64,000 bases of DNA from Limnohabitans sp. Rim28 (lineage in GTDB: Bacteria > Pseudomonadota > Gammaproteobacteria > Burkholderiales > Burkholderiaceae_C). Shown in pieces: positions 3,155-10,810 of the stretch. The stretch covers positions 1 through 64,000 of the forward strand of contig NZ_ALKN02000009.1 of the NCBI RefSeq assembly GCF_000293865.2, in the 5' to 3' direction. How positions within the stretch are numbered: position 1 is the stretch's first letter; the number at the start of each line of letters is the position of its first letter. The notes beneath the pieces were generated by a model. The model was not told the origin of the DNA. It made no database searches and saw only the letters and a list, made by a program, of their open reading frames with translations. The position numbers and the translations under genes are program-made.

Positions 3155-4450
3155 ATGATTTTCACCCCCACCTTGCAAGACTGCGAACTGCTGGACGCAC
3201 AAGACCCACTGCGGTCCCTGCGCCACCAATTTGACCTTCCTGCAGGCGTGATCTACCTGGACGGTAACTCGCTGGGCGCACTGCCCAAAAACGCCCCGGC
3301 GCGCGTGGCACAGGCCATCACCCATGAATGGGGCCACGACCTGATCAAAAGCTGGAACAGCGCAGGCTGGTTCACCCTGCCCCAGCGCGTAGGCGACAAA
3401 ATTGCCCGCGTCATCGGCGCGCAAGCAGGCGAAGTGATTGCCGCCGACAGCACCTCGATCAACCTGTTCAAAGTGCTGGCCGCCGCACTGCACATCGCCG
3501 CCGCCGACCACCCGCATAAAAAGAAGATCGTCAGCGAACGCAGCAACTTCCCTACGGACCTCTACATCGCCGAAGCCTTGTGCCATGAACGCGGCTACAC
3601 GCTTCAATTGGTCGAAGCTGACGAGATCGCCGCGGCCCTGAAAGCCGATGTGGCGGTGCTCATGCTCACCCATGTGAACTACCGCACCGGCGCCATGCAC
3701 GACATGCAGGCCCTCACCGCGCAGGCCCGCGCGCAAGGCATCCTGACGGTTTGGGACCTGGCGCACAGCGCGGGCGCGGTGCCGGTCGACCTGAACGGCT
3801 CGGGGGCCGACTTTGCCGTGGGCTGCGGTTACAAATTCCTCAACGGAGGCCCCGGAGCACCTGCCTTTGTGTGGGTGCACCCGCAGCACAGCGACCGCCG
3901 CGACCTGCCATTCATGCAACCGCTGGCCGGTTGGTGGGGCCATGCCGCGCCCTTTGCCTTCACCCCTGATTACCAACCCGCCAAAGGCATCACGCGCTTC
4001 CAATGCGGAACACAGCCCATTCTGAGCCTTACCGCGCTCGACTGCGGACTGGACACCCTGTTGGCCGCCGAGCCACTGGGCGGCATGGCCGCACTTCGCC
4101 AAAAATCGCTGGCACTCACAGGCCTTTTCATGCAGCTTGTGCGCTCGCGCTTGCACAACCACGGCTTTGGCATCGCCACACCGGCTGAGGAAGCGCTGCG
4201 CGGTTCGCAAGTGAGCCTGACCCGCGCCGAGGGCGCCTACGCCATCGTGCAAGCCCTGATCGCGCGTGGCGTCATCGGTGACTTCAGGGCTGGTGATGGC
4301 GGCTTGCACGCCGACATCCTGCGCTTTGGCTTCACGCCGCTTTACATCGGCTATGCCGATGTGTGGCAGGCCGCAGAGCATTTACGCCAAGTCATGCAAA
4401 GTGGCGAATGGCAAGATGCCGGCTTTGCACTCAAAAATGCGGTGACTTGA
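3155..4450 (+). CDS. kynU: Kynureninase
   Basis: A 431-residue PLP enzyme expected to cleave kynurenine to anthranilate and alanine. The N-terminal YLDGNSLG motif near residue 30 is diagnostic; VWDLAHSAG near 200 holds the cofactor-contacting Asp and His, and the PLP lysine lies in GCGYKFLNGG near 230. The C-terminal block with LRFGFTPLYIGYADV also fits KynU. The start is an ATG 24 bases after the YkgJ-type gene. Tryptophan 2,3-dioxygenase (kynA) and formamidase (kynB), the usual partners, are not adjacent. Confidence 0.93.
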   Translation: MIFTPTLQDCELLDAQDPLRSLRHQFDLPAGVIYLDGNSLGALPKNAPARVAQAITHEWGHDLIKSWNSAGWFTLPQRVGDKIARVIGAQAGEVIAADSTSINLFKVLAAALHIAAADHPHKKKIVSERSNFPTDLYIAEALCHERGYTLQLVEADEIAAALKADVAVLMLTHVNYRTGAMHDMQALTAQARAQGILTVWDLAHSAGAVPVDLNGSGADFAVGCGYKFLNGGPGAPAFVWVHPQHSDRRDLPFMQPLAGWWGHAAPFAFTPDYQPAKGITRFQCGTQPILSLTALDCGLDTLLAAEPLGGMAALRQKSLALTGLFMQLVRSRLHNHGFGIATPAEEALRGSQVSLTRAEGAYAIVQALIARGVIGDFRAGDGGLHADILRFGFTPLYIGYADVWQAAEHLRQVMQSGEWQDAGFALKNAVT

Positions 4451-4536
4451 AAGGTACGCCATGTGTTCTTCACCTGATGCAGGCATAAAAATGAGCTCAT
4501 TTGTCCTATGACGACATCATTCACCGGAAAAACACC

Positions 4537-5004
4537 TTGCAACTGAACATCAACGGCCTAAGCCACACCACAAGCGCCGACCCGAGCATGCCCTTGCTCT
4601 GGGTGCTGCGCGACGAACTGAACCTGACGGGCACCAAATTTGGCTGCGGCATCGCCGCTTGCGGGGCCTGCACAGTGCACGTGGGCGGTCAGCCTGTGCG
4701 CTCATGCGTGATGCCCGTGTCTGCTGTTGCATCTCAAAAAATCAAAACCATCGAATCCTTGGGCACGGCAGAAAAGCCCCACCCCTTACAAGCCGCGTGG
4801 ATTGCCGAGCAGGTGCCGCAATGTGGTTACTGCCAAAGCGGCATGCTGATGGCCGCTGCCGCCCTGCTGGACCAAAACCCCCAGCCCAGCGATGCCGACA
4901 TTGACGCCGCCATGACCAACCTGTGCCGCTGCGGCACCTACCAGCGCGTGCGCGCCGCCATCCACCGGGCAGCGGTGCAAATGAAAAAAGGCGGTGCCGC
5001 ATGA
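4537..5004 (+). CDS. [2Fe-2S] subunit of a molybdenum hydroxylase, IorA type
   Basis: A small iron-sulfur subunit of the xanthine oxidase family, closest in layout to the isoquinoline 1-oxidoreductase alpha subunit; it passes electrons from the molybdenum site. The plant-ferredoxin cluster motif [16 protein letters not shown] lies near residue 39 and the second [2Fe-2S] motif CGYCQSGM and CRCG in the C-terminal half. No in-frame ATG exists. TTG at 4537 gives a typical family start (155 residues); TTG at 4501 would add 12 residues. It overlaps the large subunit by ATGA. Confidence 0.85.
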
Positions 5005-7268
5005 AACGCCGCACCTGGTTACTCAGCGCCCTGGGCGCGACCGGCGCATTGATCGTCGGCTGGGGCGTCATGCCCGCACGCTCGCGCTTGGGCGCACCCG
5101 AACTCATGCGCCAAACCCAAGGCGATGTCGCCCTGAACGGCTGGATCAAAATCGCTGCCGACGGCGCCGTGGTGCTGGCCATGCCGCGCAGCGAAATGGG
5201 TCAGGGCGTGCACACGGCGCTGGCCATGTTGGTGGCCGAAGAACTGGACATGCCACTGGGCCGCGTGCGCCTGGAACAAGCCGGCGCCGACAGCATTTAT
5301 GGCAACGTGGCCATGCTGGTGGCCAGCCTGCCCTTTCACCCGCTGGACAGCGAGGGCGAGCACAAGCCCACCAAGATCAAGATGGGCGAATGGCTGGTGG
5401 GAAAAATCGCCCGCGAATTGGGCATCAACGCCACCGGCGGCTCGTCCTCCATCGCTGACCTGTGGGACCCTTTGCGCATGGCCGCTGCCACAGCACGCGC
5501 CAGCTTGCTGCAAGCCGCTGCGGCGGCGTGGCAAGTGCCCGTCAGCGAAATCACCGTGGCCTCAGGTGTGATGCAACACGCTTCGGGTCAATCTGCGCAC
5601 TACGGGCAGATGGTGGCCGCTGCTTCAGGCAGCACGCCCTCGGGCATCCAAACCAAATCGCGTGAAAAGTGGCAGCTCATCGGTCAACCCGCGCCGCGCA
5701 CCGACATCCCGGCCAAAGTCACAGGTCAAGCCCAGTTTGGTGCCGATGTGCGCCTACCCGGCTTGCTGTTTGCCGCCGTGCAGATGTGCCCCATGCTGGG
5801 CGGCAGCGCTGCGTCCATGGACACCAAAGATGCTTTGGCCCTGAAGGGCGTTTCCAAAGTCGTGCCGCTGGACGCTTGGGGCGGCGGTACCGCGGGCTTG
5901 GCCGTGGTGGGTCAAACCACTTGGCACGCCCGCCAAGGCGCGCAGGTCGTGAAAGTGAAGTGGCAGGCCCCGGCCACGGGCGCGGTGGACACCCAACGCA
6001 TCCAGGCCGACTTGCTCAAGGCCTTGAACAAAGACAGCGGCTTCACCTTCCACGAGCAAGGCTTACCCACACAGGCCGAAAAAGCCGCCGCCAACCGCAT
6101 CGATGCGCTGTACCAAGCGCCCTATCTGGCTCACGCCACGATGGAGCCCATGAACTGCACCGCGCAAGTCAAAGATGGCAAGGTGGAGATCTGGGTGCCC
6201 ACGCAAGTGCCGCAAATGGCCCGTGACATGGCGGCCAAAGTGGCCAAGGTCGATGTGACACAAGTCACCGTTCACGTCACGCAACTGGGCGGTGGTTTCG
6301 GGCGTCGTCTGGACGTCGACTTTGTCGGCCAAGCCGTGCAAGTGGCCATGGCCTGTGAGGGGCAGCCGGTCCAGCTGAGTTGGTCACGCGAAGAAGACAT
6401 GAAGCACGACTTTTACCGGCCCATGCACCTGGCCAAGTTCCAGGCCTCGCTCGACGACAAAGGCGAAGTCAGCAGCTTGCGCATCAAGTCGGCCGGTGAC
6501 GCCATCACCCCACGCTGGATGGCGCGTGCAGCGCCCCACTTATCAGGCCCCATCGACATGCCCGACAAGACCACCTCGGAAGGCCTGTTCGATTTGCCCT
6601 ACGGTTTTGCCAGCCAGCACATGAGCCATGTGGCCACCAAGTCCGGCGTGCCCGTCGGCTTTTGGCGCTCGGTTGGCCATTCGCACAACGCCTTTTTCTC
6701 GGAAAGTTTCATTGATGAGCTGGCCGTTGCCACCCAACAAGACCCGCTGGCCTTCCGCCTGAAGCTGTTGAAAGACGTGCCGCGCTACGCCGCTGTGCTG
6801 CAGTTGGCGGCCGACAAAGCGGGCTGGGGCAAGCCCTTGCCCGCAGGCCTTGCGCGGGGCATCGCGCTGCACAGATCCTTTGGCGCCATCGTGGCGCAAG
6901 TGGCCGAAGTGTCCCTGGCCAAGGGTCAGATCCGCGTGCACCGTGTGGTCTGTGCCATCGACTGCGGCACCGTGGTCAACCCCGGCACGGTGGCCCAACA
7001 AATGGAAAGCAGCGTGGTCTATGCCCTGAGCGCCGCGCTTTTCGGCAAGATCGACATCGTGGGCGGCGTGGTGCAACAAAGCAACTTTGGGGATGCACCC
7101 ATGCTCACGCTCAGCCAGACCCCTGTGGTGGAAACCCACATCGTGCCCAGCACCCGCCACCCGGCTGGCGTGGGCGAACCGGCGGTGCCGCCACTGGCAC
7201 CGGCAGTGGCCAATGCGCTGTTTGCTTTAACAGGCAAAAGGCAAAGGGCTTTGCCGTTGATGGCGTGA
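5001..7268 (+). CDS. Molybdopterin-binding subunit of a molybdenum hydroxylase, IorB type
   Basis: A 755-residue catalytic subunit related to isoquinoline 1-oxidoreductase beta and periplasmic aldehyde dehydrogenases; it binds molybdopterin and hydroxylates an N-heterocycle or oxidises an aldehyde. The N-terminus has an RR pair followed by a hydrophobic stretch (residues 3-24), like a Tat signal. Family motifs include [19 protein letters not shown], a GGGFGRR block near 430, and the late [18 protein letters not shown] segment. The ORF extends upstream, but the ATG overlapping the IorA stop is the natural start. No cytochrome c subunit or XdhC-type maturation factor adjoins. The substrate is unknown; the kynU neighbour makes an aromatic N-compound only a guess. 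Confidence 0.85.
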
Positions 7269-7441: not shown

Positions 7442-8260
7442 TCAGCGCGGATACCCCTCCATCCCAAAGCCCACAGCACCCAACGCACGCCGTAGCGACG
7501 CAGCCGCCTCCTCGTCGAGCCCGCACAAAGGCGGGCGCACCCTCGCCCAATCCGCATGGCCCGAGTGTTCTGCGGCTGTGCGTTTCATGGCGGCAATCTT
7601 GGGCGTCGCTTGGAAGATTTTGCGGATTTGATCGGCCTGCTCCTGCAGCATCATCCCATCAGGCATGTTCCAGCGGTCAAACAAAGCCTTGATGCCCGAC
7701 GGGTTCACGCTCACCGTGGCGCTGATGCAGCCTGCCCCGCCAAGGGCCAAGGAAGCGGTCAAAAGGGATTCACTGGCCGGAAACACCGCAAAGCCGATGG
7801 GTGCAAAAGCTTCGATCATGGCACGCGAGTTGGCCCAATCGCCCGACGAATCCTTGGCGCCCATGATGGTGTGCGGATACCGTTTGATCAGCCGCTCAAT
7901 CAAGGACATCGTGAGCGGCACCTGCGTCATCTGCGGGATGTGATAAAGGTAAATGCCCAGCTTGTCGCTGCCCACCCGCTCGATGATCTCGCTGTAATAC
8001 GTGAACACCCCCTCTTCAGACCCACCTTTTTCCAACAGGTGGTCGGTCAGGTGCAGGCACTCATCCACCGACAGCGATGCGGCTTCAGAGTTGGTGCCAA
8101 AAATAGCAAGCCCGGCACCATGGTTCACCAGCCAACGACAGTGGGCCGTGAAGCGCTCAGCGTCGGACGCGAGCGCGCGGTCAAAGGGCGTGATGACAGG
8201 CGCATAGACGCCTCGAAGGGGTTGTGCCGTGGTGTCTGTCCAAACTGTTGGATGGCTTGA
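7442..8260 (-). CDS. Dihydrodipicolinate synthase / N-acetylneuraminate lyase family aldolase, start codon unresolved
   Basis: A class I (Schiff-base) aldolase of the DapA/NAL superfamily. Homology-like sequence begins at LRGVYAPVITPF (about 8218), then IFGTNSEA (equivalent of GTTGE), YLYHIPQ with the Tyr position, and the Schiff-base Lys in MGAKDSSGD. The frame is open from 8260, directly after the stop of the HpaI aldolase and in the same frame, but contains no ATG, GTG or TTG before the internal GTG at 8128, which would delete the first barrel strand. It therefore uses a non-standard start, is made by readthrough, or has lost its start. It is the last gene of the leftward catabolic cluster, so it more likely acts in a keto-acid pathway than in lysine synthesis. 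Confidence 0.75.
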   Translation of the reverse strand, partial: SSHPTVWTDTTAQPLRGVYAPVITPFDRALASDAERFTAHCRWLVNHGAGLAIFGTNSEAASLSVDECLHLTDHLLEKGGSEEGVFTYYSEIIERVGSDKLGIYLYHIPQMTQVPLTMSLIERLIKRYPHTIMGAKDSSGDWANSRAMIEAFAPIGFAVFPASESLLTASLALGGAGCISATVSVNPSGIKALFDRWNMPDGMMLQEQADQIRKIFQATPKIAAMKRTAAEHSGHADWARVRPPLCGLDEEAAASLRRALGAVGFGMEGYPR

Positions 8261-8968
8261 TCACTTCTTCATCACAGCATTGAGCTCGCGCAGGGCGCGA
8301 TCGAGCAGCCACTCGACCGGGAAGTACAGCAAGGTCGCCCCCGCCTGCTTGAAGCCCTCGAGCTGCGCCCAATTGGCTGGCATGCCAAACACCTTGCCCG
8401 CCTGCTTCAGCCGCTGGCTGACCTCGGCAATCGTGGCCATCACTTCGGGCGTCTGCGCGCCGCGCTTGCCCATGATGCTGTAGGCCAGGTCGTTGGGGCC
8501 CACCAAGTAAGCATCCACGCCCGGCACGGCCATGATCGCATCCAGGTTACGCACCGCGTCCACAGTCTCGATCTGCACGATCACCGATTTTTTCAGCGCC
8601 TGCTCGCCGCAAGCGTAGTGCATGAGTTCGACCACATCGGCCGCGTCCTGGGCAGTGTTGATGTGCGGCACCACCAGCCCACAGGCTTGCCGATCCAGGT
8701 ACTGCACCAGGACCTGTGGGTCCTTGGACCAGCTGCGCACAATGGGCGCCAGACCCGCCACTTGGGCGGCGCGGATCATGTCGGTCGCAACGTCCAGGCC
8801 GATGCCGGAGCGTTCACAATCAATGAAAGCAAAGTCGGCGCCAGATGTCGCCAGGGCCTTGAGGATGTCGGGGTTGCGACCGCCCACGTTGACGGCGATC
8901 ACGGACTGGCCTTCGCGCAGTCGCTGTTGGCCAGGGTAAATAGAAGCAGAGGGGGGAGCTGAGGTCAT
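8261..8968 (-). CDS. HpcH/HpaI family class II aldolase
   Basis: A 235-residue metal-dependent pyruvate-type aldolase related to HpaI (4-hydroxy-2-oxoheptanedioate aldolase) and 2-dehydro-3-deoxyglucarate aldolase. It should split a 2-oxo-4-hydroxy acid to pyruvate and an aldehyde or keto acid. FAFIDCERSG near residue 47 corresponds to the family D.EH region, VIVQIET (near 136) carries the metal-binding Glu, and VGPNDLAYSIMG (near 160) the metal-binding Asp. It overlaps the upstream LigI-like gene by ATGA and precedes the DapA-like aldolase in the same frame. The exact substrate cannot be read from the sequence. Confidence 0.85.
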   Translation of the reverse strand: MTSAPPSASIYPGQQRLREGQSVIAVNVGGRNPDILKALATSGADFAFIDCERSGIGLDVATDMIRAAQVAGLAPIVRSWSKDPQVLVQYLDRQACGLVVPHINTAQDAADVVELMHYACGEQALKKSVIVQIETVDAVRNLDAIMAVPGVDAYLVGPNDLAYSIMGKRGAQTPEVMATIAEVSQRLKQAGKVFGMPANWAQLEGFKQAGATLLYFPVEWLLDRALRELNAVMKK

Positions 8969-9858
8969 GGATATCCGTAGAGTCGGGCTGGGTTATCGAC
9001 CAGAATGGACTGGAGCAACTCCGGCGTGCCCAACCAGTCCAGAAAAAGGTTGAACAGATCACCATCGTTGGGCATTGCGCTTTTGATGAAGACGTGCGGC
9101 CAATCGCTGCCCCACATCAGGCTTTGAGGCACCTCTTGCAGCAGACGCGTCGCGACGGGGTGCACACTGGGGTAGGGGCTGGCTTCTGTCGTCAGTCGGT
9201 AGGGCGCGGTCAGCTTGATCAGGGCGCGACCGGCACGCGCCAGTTCGACCAAACCTTCAAACCCGGCGCCAAATCCCAACTGCGTGGGCACATAGCCCAG
9301 ATGGCCGAATACCAACTGGACCGGCAGGTCACCCAGTTGCTGCGCGAGGTCGGGGAATTCGTTGACGTGCATCAAAAATTCGATATGCCAGCCCAACGGC
9401 GCGATGGTGGCCGCCAAGCGGCGCAGCCCCTCCATCGGCAACTGCCCTTTGCCGTCCTTGAGGTCGACGATGTTGCAGCGCACGCCGCGCACCCCCAGGG
9501 CATGCAGCTCGCGCACGCGCTGGGTGTCCACGTCAAAAGGCACCACCGCCACGGCGCGAAGACGCACCGGGTCTTGCGCCAAGGCTTCGAGCATGGCGCT
9601 GTTGTCGGTGCCATAGACGCTGGGCTGCACCAGGACCGCGCGCTCGATGCCCAGAGTATCGAGCATGTGCCGAAATTCATGCAACGGCGCCTGCGGCGGG
9701 TTGTACAGACGATTGGCCACCAGAGGAAAGAGCGAACGAGGCCCGCAGACATGGGCATGTGTGTCGCAAGCATGGGCCGGAATTTGGATCCGCGGCTTTT
9801 GGGGGTGCGGATCGTGTGCCTCACATTCGGGCAGGTCGTCGAGGTTCGTGTCAGTCAA
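8965..9858 (-). CDS. LigI-like amidohydrolase (2-pyrone-4,6-dicarboxylate lactonase family)
   Basis: A 297-residue amidohydrolase-superfamily lactonase. Motifs are DTHAHVCGP near residue 30 (metal-site HxH), IEFLMH near 145, VFGHLG near 167 and WGSDWPHV near 250 with the catalytic Asp. This layout fits the family of 2-pyrone-4,6-dicarboxylate hydrolase, which opens a lactone ring. An upstream ATG/GTG would place about 90 bases inside the preceding gene; a TTG at 9858 with CAGGAG eight bases upstream overlaps the TctC stop and is preferred. It overlaps the HpaI aldolase by ATGA. The substrate is probably a lactone or pyrone carboxylate. Confidence 0.82.
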   Translation of the reverse strand: MTDTNLDDLPECEAHDPHPQKPRIQIPAHACDTHAHVCGPRSLFPLVANRLYNPPQAPLHEFRHMLDTLGIERAVLVQPSVYGTDNSAMLEALAQDPVRLRAVAVVPFDVDTQRVRELHALGVRGVRCNIVDLKDGKGQLPMEGLRRLAATIAPLGWHIEFLMHVNEFPDLAQQLGDLPVQLVFGHLGYVPTQLGFGAGFEGLVELARAGRALIKLTAPYRLTTEASPYPSVHPVATRLLQEVPQSLMWGSDWPHVFIKSAMPNDGDLFNLFLDWLGTPELLQSILVDNPARLYGYP

Positions 9859-10810
9859 TCTTGGCTCCTGTTTCCTTAACGACCTTGCCCCATTTGGCGA
9901 CTTCGTCACGCAAAAAGGCAGCATATTCGGCCTGGCTGCTGGTGTAGGCATCGGCGCCCTGCTCGCTCAGGTACTTGCTCATGGCGGGCTCCTTGACGAT
10001 GCGCACGACAGCGGTGTGGATCTTGGCTGCGATGGCCGGCGGCAAATTGGCCGGGCCCACCAGGCCAAAGAAGCCACTGGCCTCATAACCCGGCAAGCCC
10101 GAGTCGTTGATGGTGGGCACCTCCGGCAGCGCCGGGATGCGTTGGCGCGAGCTCACGCCCAAGGCCTTGATCCTGCCGCTCTTGATGAAGGGCACAGCCG
10201 AGGGGGCGGTGGCCAAGGAGACCTGCACATGGCCGGCGACCAGATCGGTCATGGCCTGGGGTCCGCCCTTGTAGGGCACGTGCAGCATCTTGGTGTCGCT
10301 CATGGTCTTGAACATCTCGGCAGACAGGTGGGGCTGACTGCCGTTGCCGGCAGAGCTGTAGCTCACCGGCGCAGACGTGGTCTTCAGGTATTGAATCAGT
10401 TCGCGCGTGGTGTTGGCCGGAACCGAGGGATGCACCACCAGCACCTGGGCGGTCTCGGCCACCAGAGTGAGGGGCGTGAAGTCCTTCAGGGGGTCATACG
10501 TCATCTTGGGATACAGCGTGGCGTTGATGCTGTGCGCGGTGGAGGCCATCAGCAGGGTGTAGCCGTCGGGCGCAGAACGCACCGCATGCTCGGCGCCGAT
10601 GTTGGCGCCGCCACCGGGTCGGTTGTCAACCACCACGGGTTGCTTCCATTCTTCCGAGAGCTTTTGGGCCAGCGCGCGGGTGATGATGTCGGTTGTACCG
10701 CCGGCTGGAAAGGGGACAACGATGCGCACCGGTCGGTTCGGGTAGTCCTGCGCCTGAGCGGCAAAGGTCAGGCAGGTGGCGGCAAGAACGAAAAGGCGAC
10801 GGAACGACAT
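9851..10810 (-). CDS. Bug-family (TctC) periplasmic solute-binding protein
   Basis: A 319-residue tripartite-tricarboxylate-type binding protein. Residues 1-20 form a Sec signal peptide ending in AQAQ; the mature protein opens with YPNRPVRIVVPFPAGGTTD, the hallmark of Bug proteins, and has the LLMASTAHSINATLY and HVPYKGGPQAMTDLVAG blocks. Bug proteins bind carboxylates in the periplasm. No TctA or TctB membrane subunits are found in the window, so it is an orphan that either uses distant permeases or serves as a sensor. It overlaps the LigI-like gene and follows the racemase-like gene by 12 bases. Confidence 0.9.
   Translation of the reverse strand: MSFRRLFVLAATCLTFAAQAQDYPNRPVRIVVPFPAGGTTDIITRALAQKLSEEWKQPVVVDNRPGGGANIGAEHAVRSAPDGYTLLMASTAHSINATLYPKMTYDPLKDFTPLTLVAETAQVLVVHPSVPANTTRELIQYLKTTSAPVSYSSAGNGSQPHLSAEMFKTMSDTKMLHVPYKGGPQAMTDLVAGHVQVSLATAPSAVPFIKSGRIKALGVSSRQRIPALPEVPTINDSGLPGYEASGFFGLVGPANLPPAIAAKIHTAVVRIVKEPAMSKYLSEQGADAYTSSQAEYAAFLRDEVAKWGKVVKETGAKID

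Follow-up and report, generated by a model that had tools for sequence, protein, structure and literature searches.

Young bacterial pseudogenes can arise through point mutation and in-frame deletion. Within the analysed stretch of 64,000 nucleotides from Limnohabitans sp. Rim28 (hereafter the window), an open frame belonging to the DHDPS/DapA superfamily (PF00701) shares with them an apparent start loss, an internal deletion, signs of relaxed selection and intact neighbours, and nothing notable sets it apart from them. We consider it very probable, at roughly 90%, that this DapA-like gene is a young pseudogene, the last gene in an otherwise open cluster.

The frame matches PF00701 with an E value of 1.4e-22, above the Pfam cut-off. 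The nearest solved structure by sequence is 3b4u, which aligns to residues 7–293 of the 305 residues of an intact relative. Against the NCBIfam model of true DapA the window copy scores 75.8 bits and the intact relative 114 bits, both far below the cut-off of 206 bits. None of the four proteins queried against NCBIfam reached the cut-off of a listed family.

Genomic context and relatives

The DapA-like frame is located at the 3' end of a minus strand cluster which looks catabolic. The order of the cluster is a TctC-type receptor, an Amdase-family protein (PF17645), a second TctC-type receptor (both receptors PF03401), an amidohydrolase (PF04909), an HpaI/HpcH-family aldolase (PF03328) and the DapA-like gene, and all five genes ahead of the latter are open frames. 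The amidohydrolase (8965–9951, minus strand) lies upstream in the same direction; these coordinates describe its longest ORF, and the true start may be downstream of 9951. The HpaI aldolase (8261–8968, minus strand) encodes 235 amino acids in an intact frame, from an ATG at 8968 to a TGA at 8263–8261, and is 97% identical to its counterparts in both of the closest relatives.

A scan of species genomes identified seven loci, the closest of which, L001 and L002, come from Burkholderiales metagenome genomes. In the window's genus, 86 out of 90 genomes, counting the one that holds the window, were matched at E ≤ 0.001, mostly weakly. Besides the window's own match, only two of these exceeded 85% identity, G057 and G059, which correspond to L001 and L002; the close comparison therefore rests on two relatives. 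In a sample of the family, 22 of 299 genomes were matched at E ≤ 1e-50, again including the window's own, and a search for plasmid relatives gave no match. L001 and L002 have the same order of amidohydrolase, HpaI aldolase and DapA-like gene as the window, and the same C terminus of the DapA-like protein. Unlike the window, both possess an ATG start and 43 residues that the window copy lacks, and both are full length. Of the differences between the window and L001 over 261 shared codons, 10 are synonymous and 13 nonsynonymous.

A DapA-like homologue in two frames was observed in Variovorax sp. E3 (L005, 2989–3902), with a break around 3199–3206 and 8 bases between the pieces. This split is possibly a frameshift or a sequencing error.

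No second intact copy of the DapA-like gene was found in the window's genome, where a protein search returned just the window's frame and a gene on contig C12. The latter is a full-length DapA (C12:63623–64480, 339 bits), and a weaker-scoring PF00701 member is located at C9:135576–136475. Because of the full-length DapA on C12, loss of the DapA-like gene need not affect lysine synthesis.

The missing start codon

The DapA-like frame occupies 7442–8260 on the minus strand and comprises 272 codons, with its stop at 7444–7442. As the preliminary description had reported, it has no normal start and is in frame with the HpaI TGA, beyond which it stays open from 8260 onwards. The same description placed the first ATG, GTG or TTG at about residue 36 of the family alignment, and this is borne out as well: the first such codon is a GTG at 8126–8128 (minus strand), which is codon 45 of the open frame and corresponds to residue 35 of the intact L001 protein. 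A product starting there would have 228 amino acids, without the first 34 residues and without the internal stretch described below.

Start-codon loss, a rare start codon and readthrough of the TGA had all been put forward for the odd start, together with a comparison of the junction in relatives. That comparison favours the first of the three. Both L001 (3031) and L002 (3010) have a clear ATG exactly where the alignment places an ACG in the window (8228–8230, minus strand), and the surrounding sequence is closely similar in all three. That the close orthologues both place an ATG at this very site is strong evidence that the start was lost, and it carries most of the weight; in the window lineage the ATG would have mutated to ACG, thereby removing the normal start. 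We also surveyed 56 of the 58 loci with a DapA-like match, leaving out two duplicate records. An in-frame ATG, GTG or TTG within 45 codons before alignment residue 7, and ahead of any stop, was present in all 55 other loci and missing in the window, a count that serves as a weak control since a start in such a stretch often occurs by chance and many of the loci are distant, with a different N terminus.

The GTG that overlaps the HpaI stop (GTGA, 8264–8261) was tried as an aldolase start and rejected in the window, L001 and L002. In the window and L001 it opens a different frame that ends after 27 codons, and in L002 the corresponding GTG is in the aldolase frame with a TAG six codons on.

The internal deletion

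The preliminary description had overlooked a second lesion. Alignment with L001 places an in-frame deletion of 129 bases at 8029–8030 (minus strand) of the window, corresponding to 3232–3360 of L001 and to residues 68–110 of the intact protein. The DNA match to G057 splits at the same junction, with 129 bases between the pieces; since L001 comes from G057, this match repeats one finding with a different program. The 129 bases would have been lost within the window lineage. No clear direct repeat was found at the two ends of the deletion, and we propose no mechanism for it.

The stretch is retained throughout the family. None of 38 aligned relatives lacks more than 10 of its residues (loci of at least 40% identity matched over nearly their full length, excluding duplicates and the frame-split L005), and P77, G78, L90, G98, L105, P106 and P107 are identical in all 38. 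It ends with the motif P-P-F-[FY]-Y, which aligns with the T-P-Y-Y segment of a true DapA, a segment bearing an active-site tyrosine. L001 itself carries a Phe at the second of these positions.

The intact L001 protein was modelled by AlphaFold2 with a mean pLDDT of 94.5 and a pTM of 0.92. In this model the deleted stretch contains a helix (84–96), a strand (102–104) and bridge residues 75 and 78, and we take it to represent strands 3 and 4 of the (beta/alpha)8 barrel and the intervening helix, with the strand numbers inferred. The window copy, missing residues 68–110, does not have a complete barrel, and its predicted model falls to a mean pLDDT of 78.3 and a pTM of 0.71. Values below 50 are found at residues 77–86, beginning at the junction, and at residues 1–14.

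The remaining frame is free of premature stops and frameshifts. That it still looks open reflects the recent date of the loss and a deletion that left the reading frame undisturbed. The window copy retains the Lys of the GAKDSS motif and the Tyr of YHIP, matching the invariant K136 and Y106 of alignment A3, which we take to be the Schiff-base lysine and the tyrosine of the Y-x-x-P motif.

Selection on the window lineage

L002 served as outgroup for polarising the changes over the 261 shared codons of the aldolase. In the DapA-like gene, 3 changes on the window branch are synonymous and 10 nonsynonymous (pN/pS 1.07), as compared to 6 and 3 on the L001 branch (pN/pS 0.16). For the window branch, three neighbouring genes were examined as well: the HpaI aldolase with 16 synonymous and 5 nonsynonymous changes (pN/pS 0.10), the amidohydrolase with 6 and 0 (pN/pS 0.00) and a molybdopterin oxidoreductase with 78 and 41 (pN/pS 0.17), giving 100 and 46 when pooled. 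The DapA-like gene differs from the pooled neighbours (Fisher p = 0.0018), in a test that was picked after the lesions had been seen and that draws on only 13 changes in the DapA-like gene. The difference between its window and L001 branches is not significant (Fisher p = 0.079). Taken together, these counts give moderate support to relaxed selection on the DapA-like gene in the window lineage.

Some of the changes affect conserved sites. An Asn-to-Ser change at 7709–7711 (minus strand) replaces a residue found in 38 of 38 relatives, and a Val-to-Gly change at 8021–8023 (minus strand) adjoins the deletion junction, at a position with Val in 26 of the 38 and Gly in none. Other changes of the window lineage are at variable positions, and some of the window's residues are also seen in relatives.

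Synonymous divergence between the window and L001 is uneven over 7442–9966, the DapA-like gene standing at about 0.055, the amidohydrolase at about 0.068 and the HpaI aldolase at about 0.181. Such differences among adjacent genes may point to recombination inside the cluster.

Alternative explanations

The genome is a draft of 67 contigs; the species' gene could be intact, and both the ACG and the 129-base gap could stem from sequencing, binning or strain mixing. We regard this as quite unlikely, given two separate lesions, an excess of amino acid changes on the same lineage, some of them at conserved sites, and three neighbours that have kept their frames open and show low pN/pS on that branch. 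Both lesions would be expected in the living cell. Very unlikely, too, is continued initiation at ACG, or at some other rare codon, to make a shortened DapA-like protein with some function. The open frame and the conserved-motif Lys and Tyr that it retains would fit such a protein, yet residues 68–110 of the barrel are absent, the structure prediction degrades, pN/pS is about 1 and ACG is a very weak start codon in E. coli. It is more doubtful still that the frame has been kept open by use, with a shortened protein made from the ACG, from the GTG at 8128 or by readthrough of the TGA, and still bearing the Schiff-base Lys, partnering or regulating the HpaI aldolase without catalysis of its own.

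Readthrough of the TGA to give a fusion of two aldolases draws on the fact that the window and L001 share a frame across the junction with no stop in between. A match of frames between the HpaI and DapA-like genes is by itself a one-in-three event, and the junction is not conserved: in L001 the aldolase has its own in-frame ATG 30 bases after the HpaI stop, whereas in L002 the spacing is 32 bases, the two genes are in different frames and a TAG precedes the ATG in the aldolase frame. The common frame is probably due to chance, because L002 uses another one. With the second domain of the window copy damaged in addition, a fusion protein is exceedingly improbable. Of the origins proposed in the preliminary description, loss of the start codon is the one supported, readthrough and a rare start both being made unlikely by the damage to the barrel. 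Together with the evidence of relaxed selection, which the preliminary description had likewise overlooked, the 129-base deletion turns what was described as an odd start into a probable pseudogene, and the decay is most likely an ordinary gene loss as opposed to an unusual translation start.

Implications for annotation and function

Judged from the sequence, the two lesions would disable the DapA-like copy, and most likely no working enzyme is produced from it. This suggests that the lineage has lost the step carried out by the cluster's last gene, or that another enzyme performs it. The consequence is mostly for correct annotation, with little beyond: automatic annotation might call a rare start, or an aldolase of 228 amino acids that begins with the GTG at 8128. 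Comparison with close relatives is what distinguishes gene decay from unusual translation in such a case.

On the plus strand of the window, a kynureninase-like gene, a [2Fe-2S] protein and a molybdopterin-binding oxidoreductase are found in a row at 3155–7268, convergent with the putative pseudogene.
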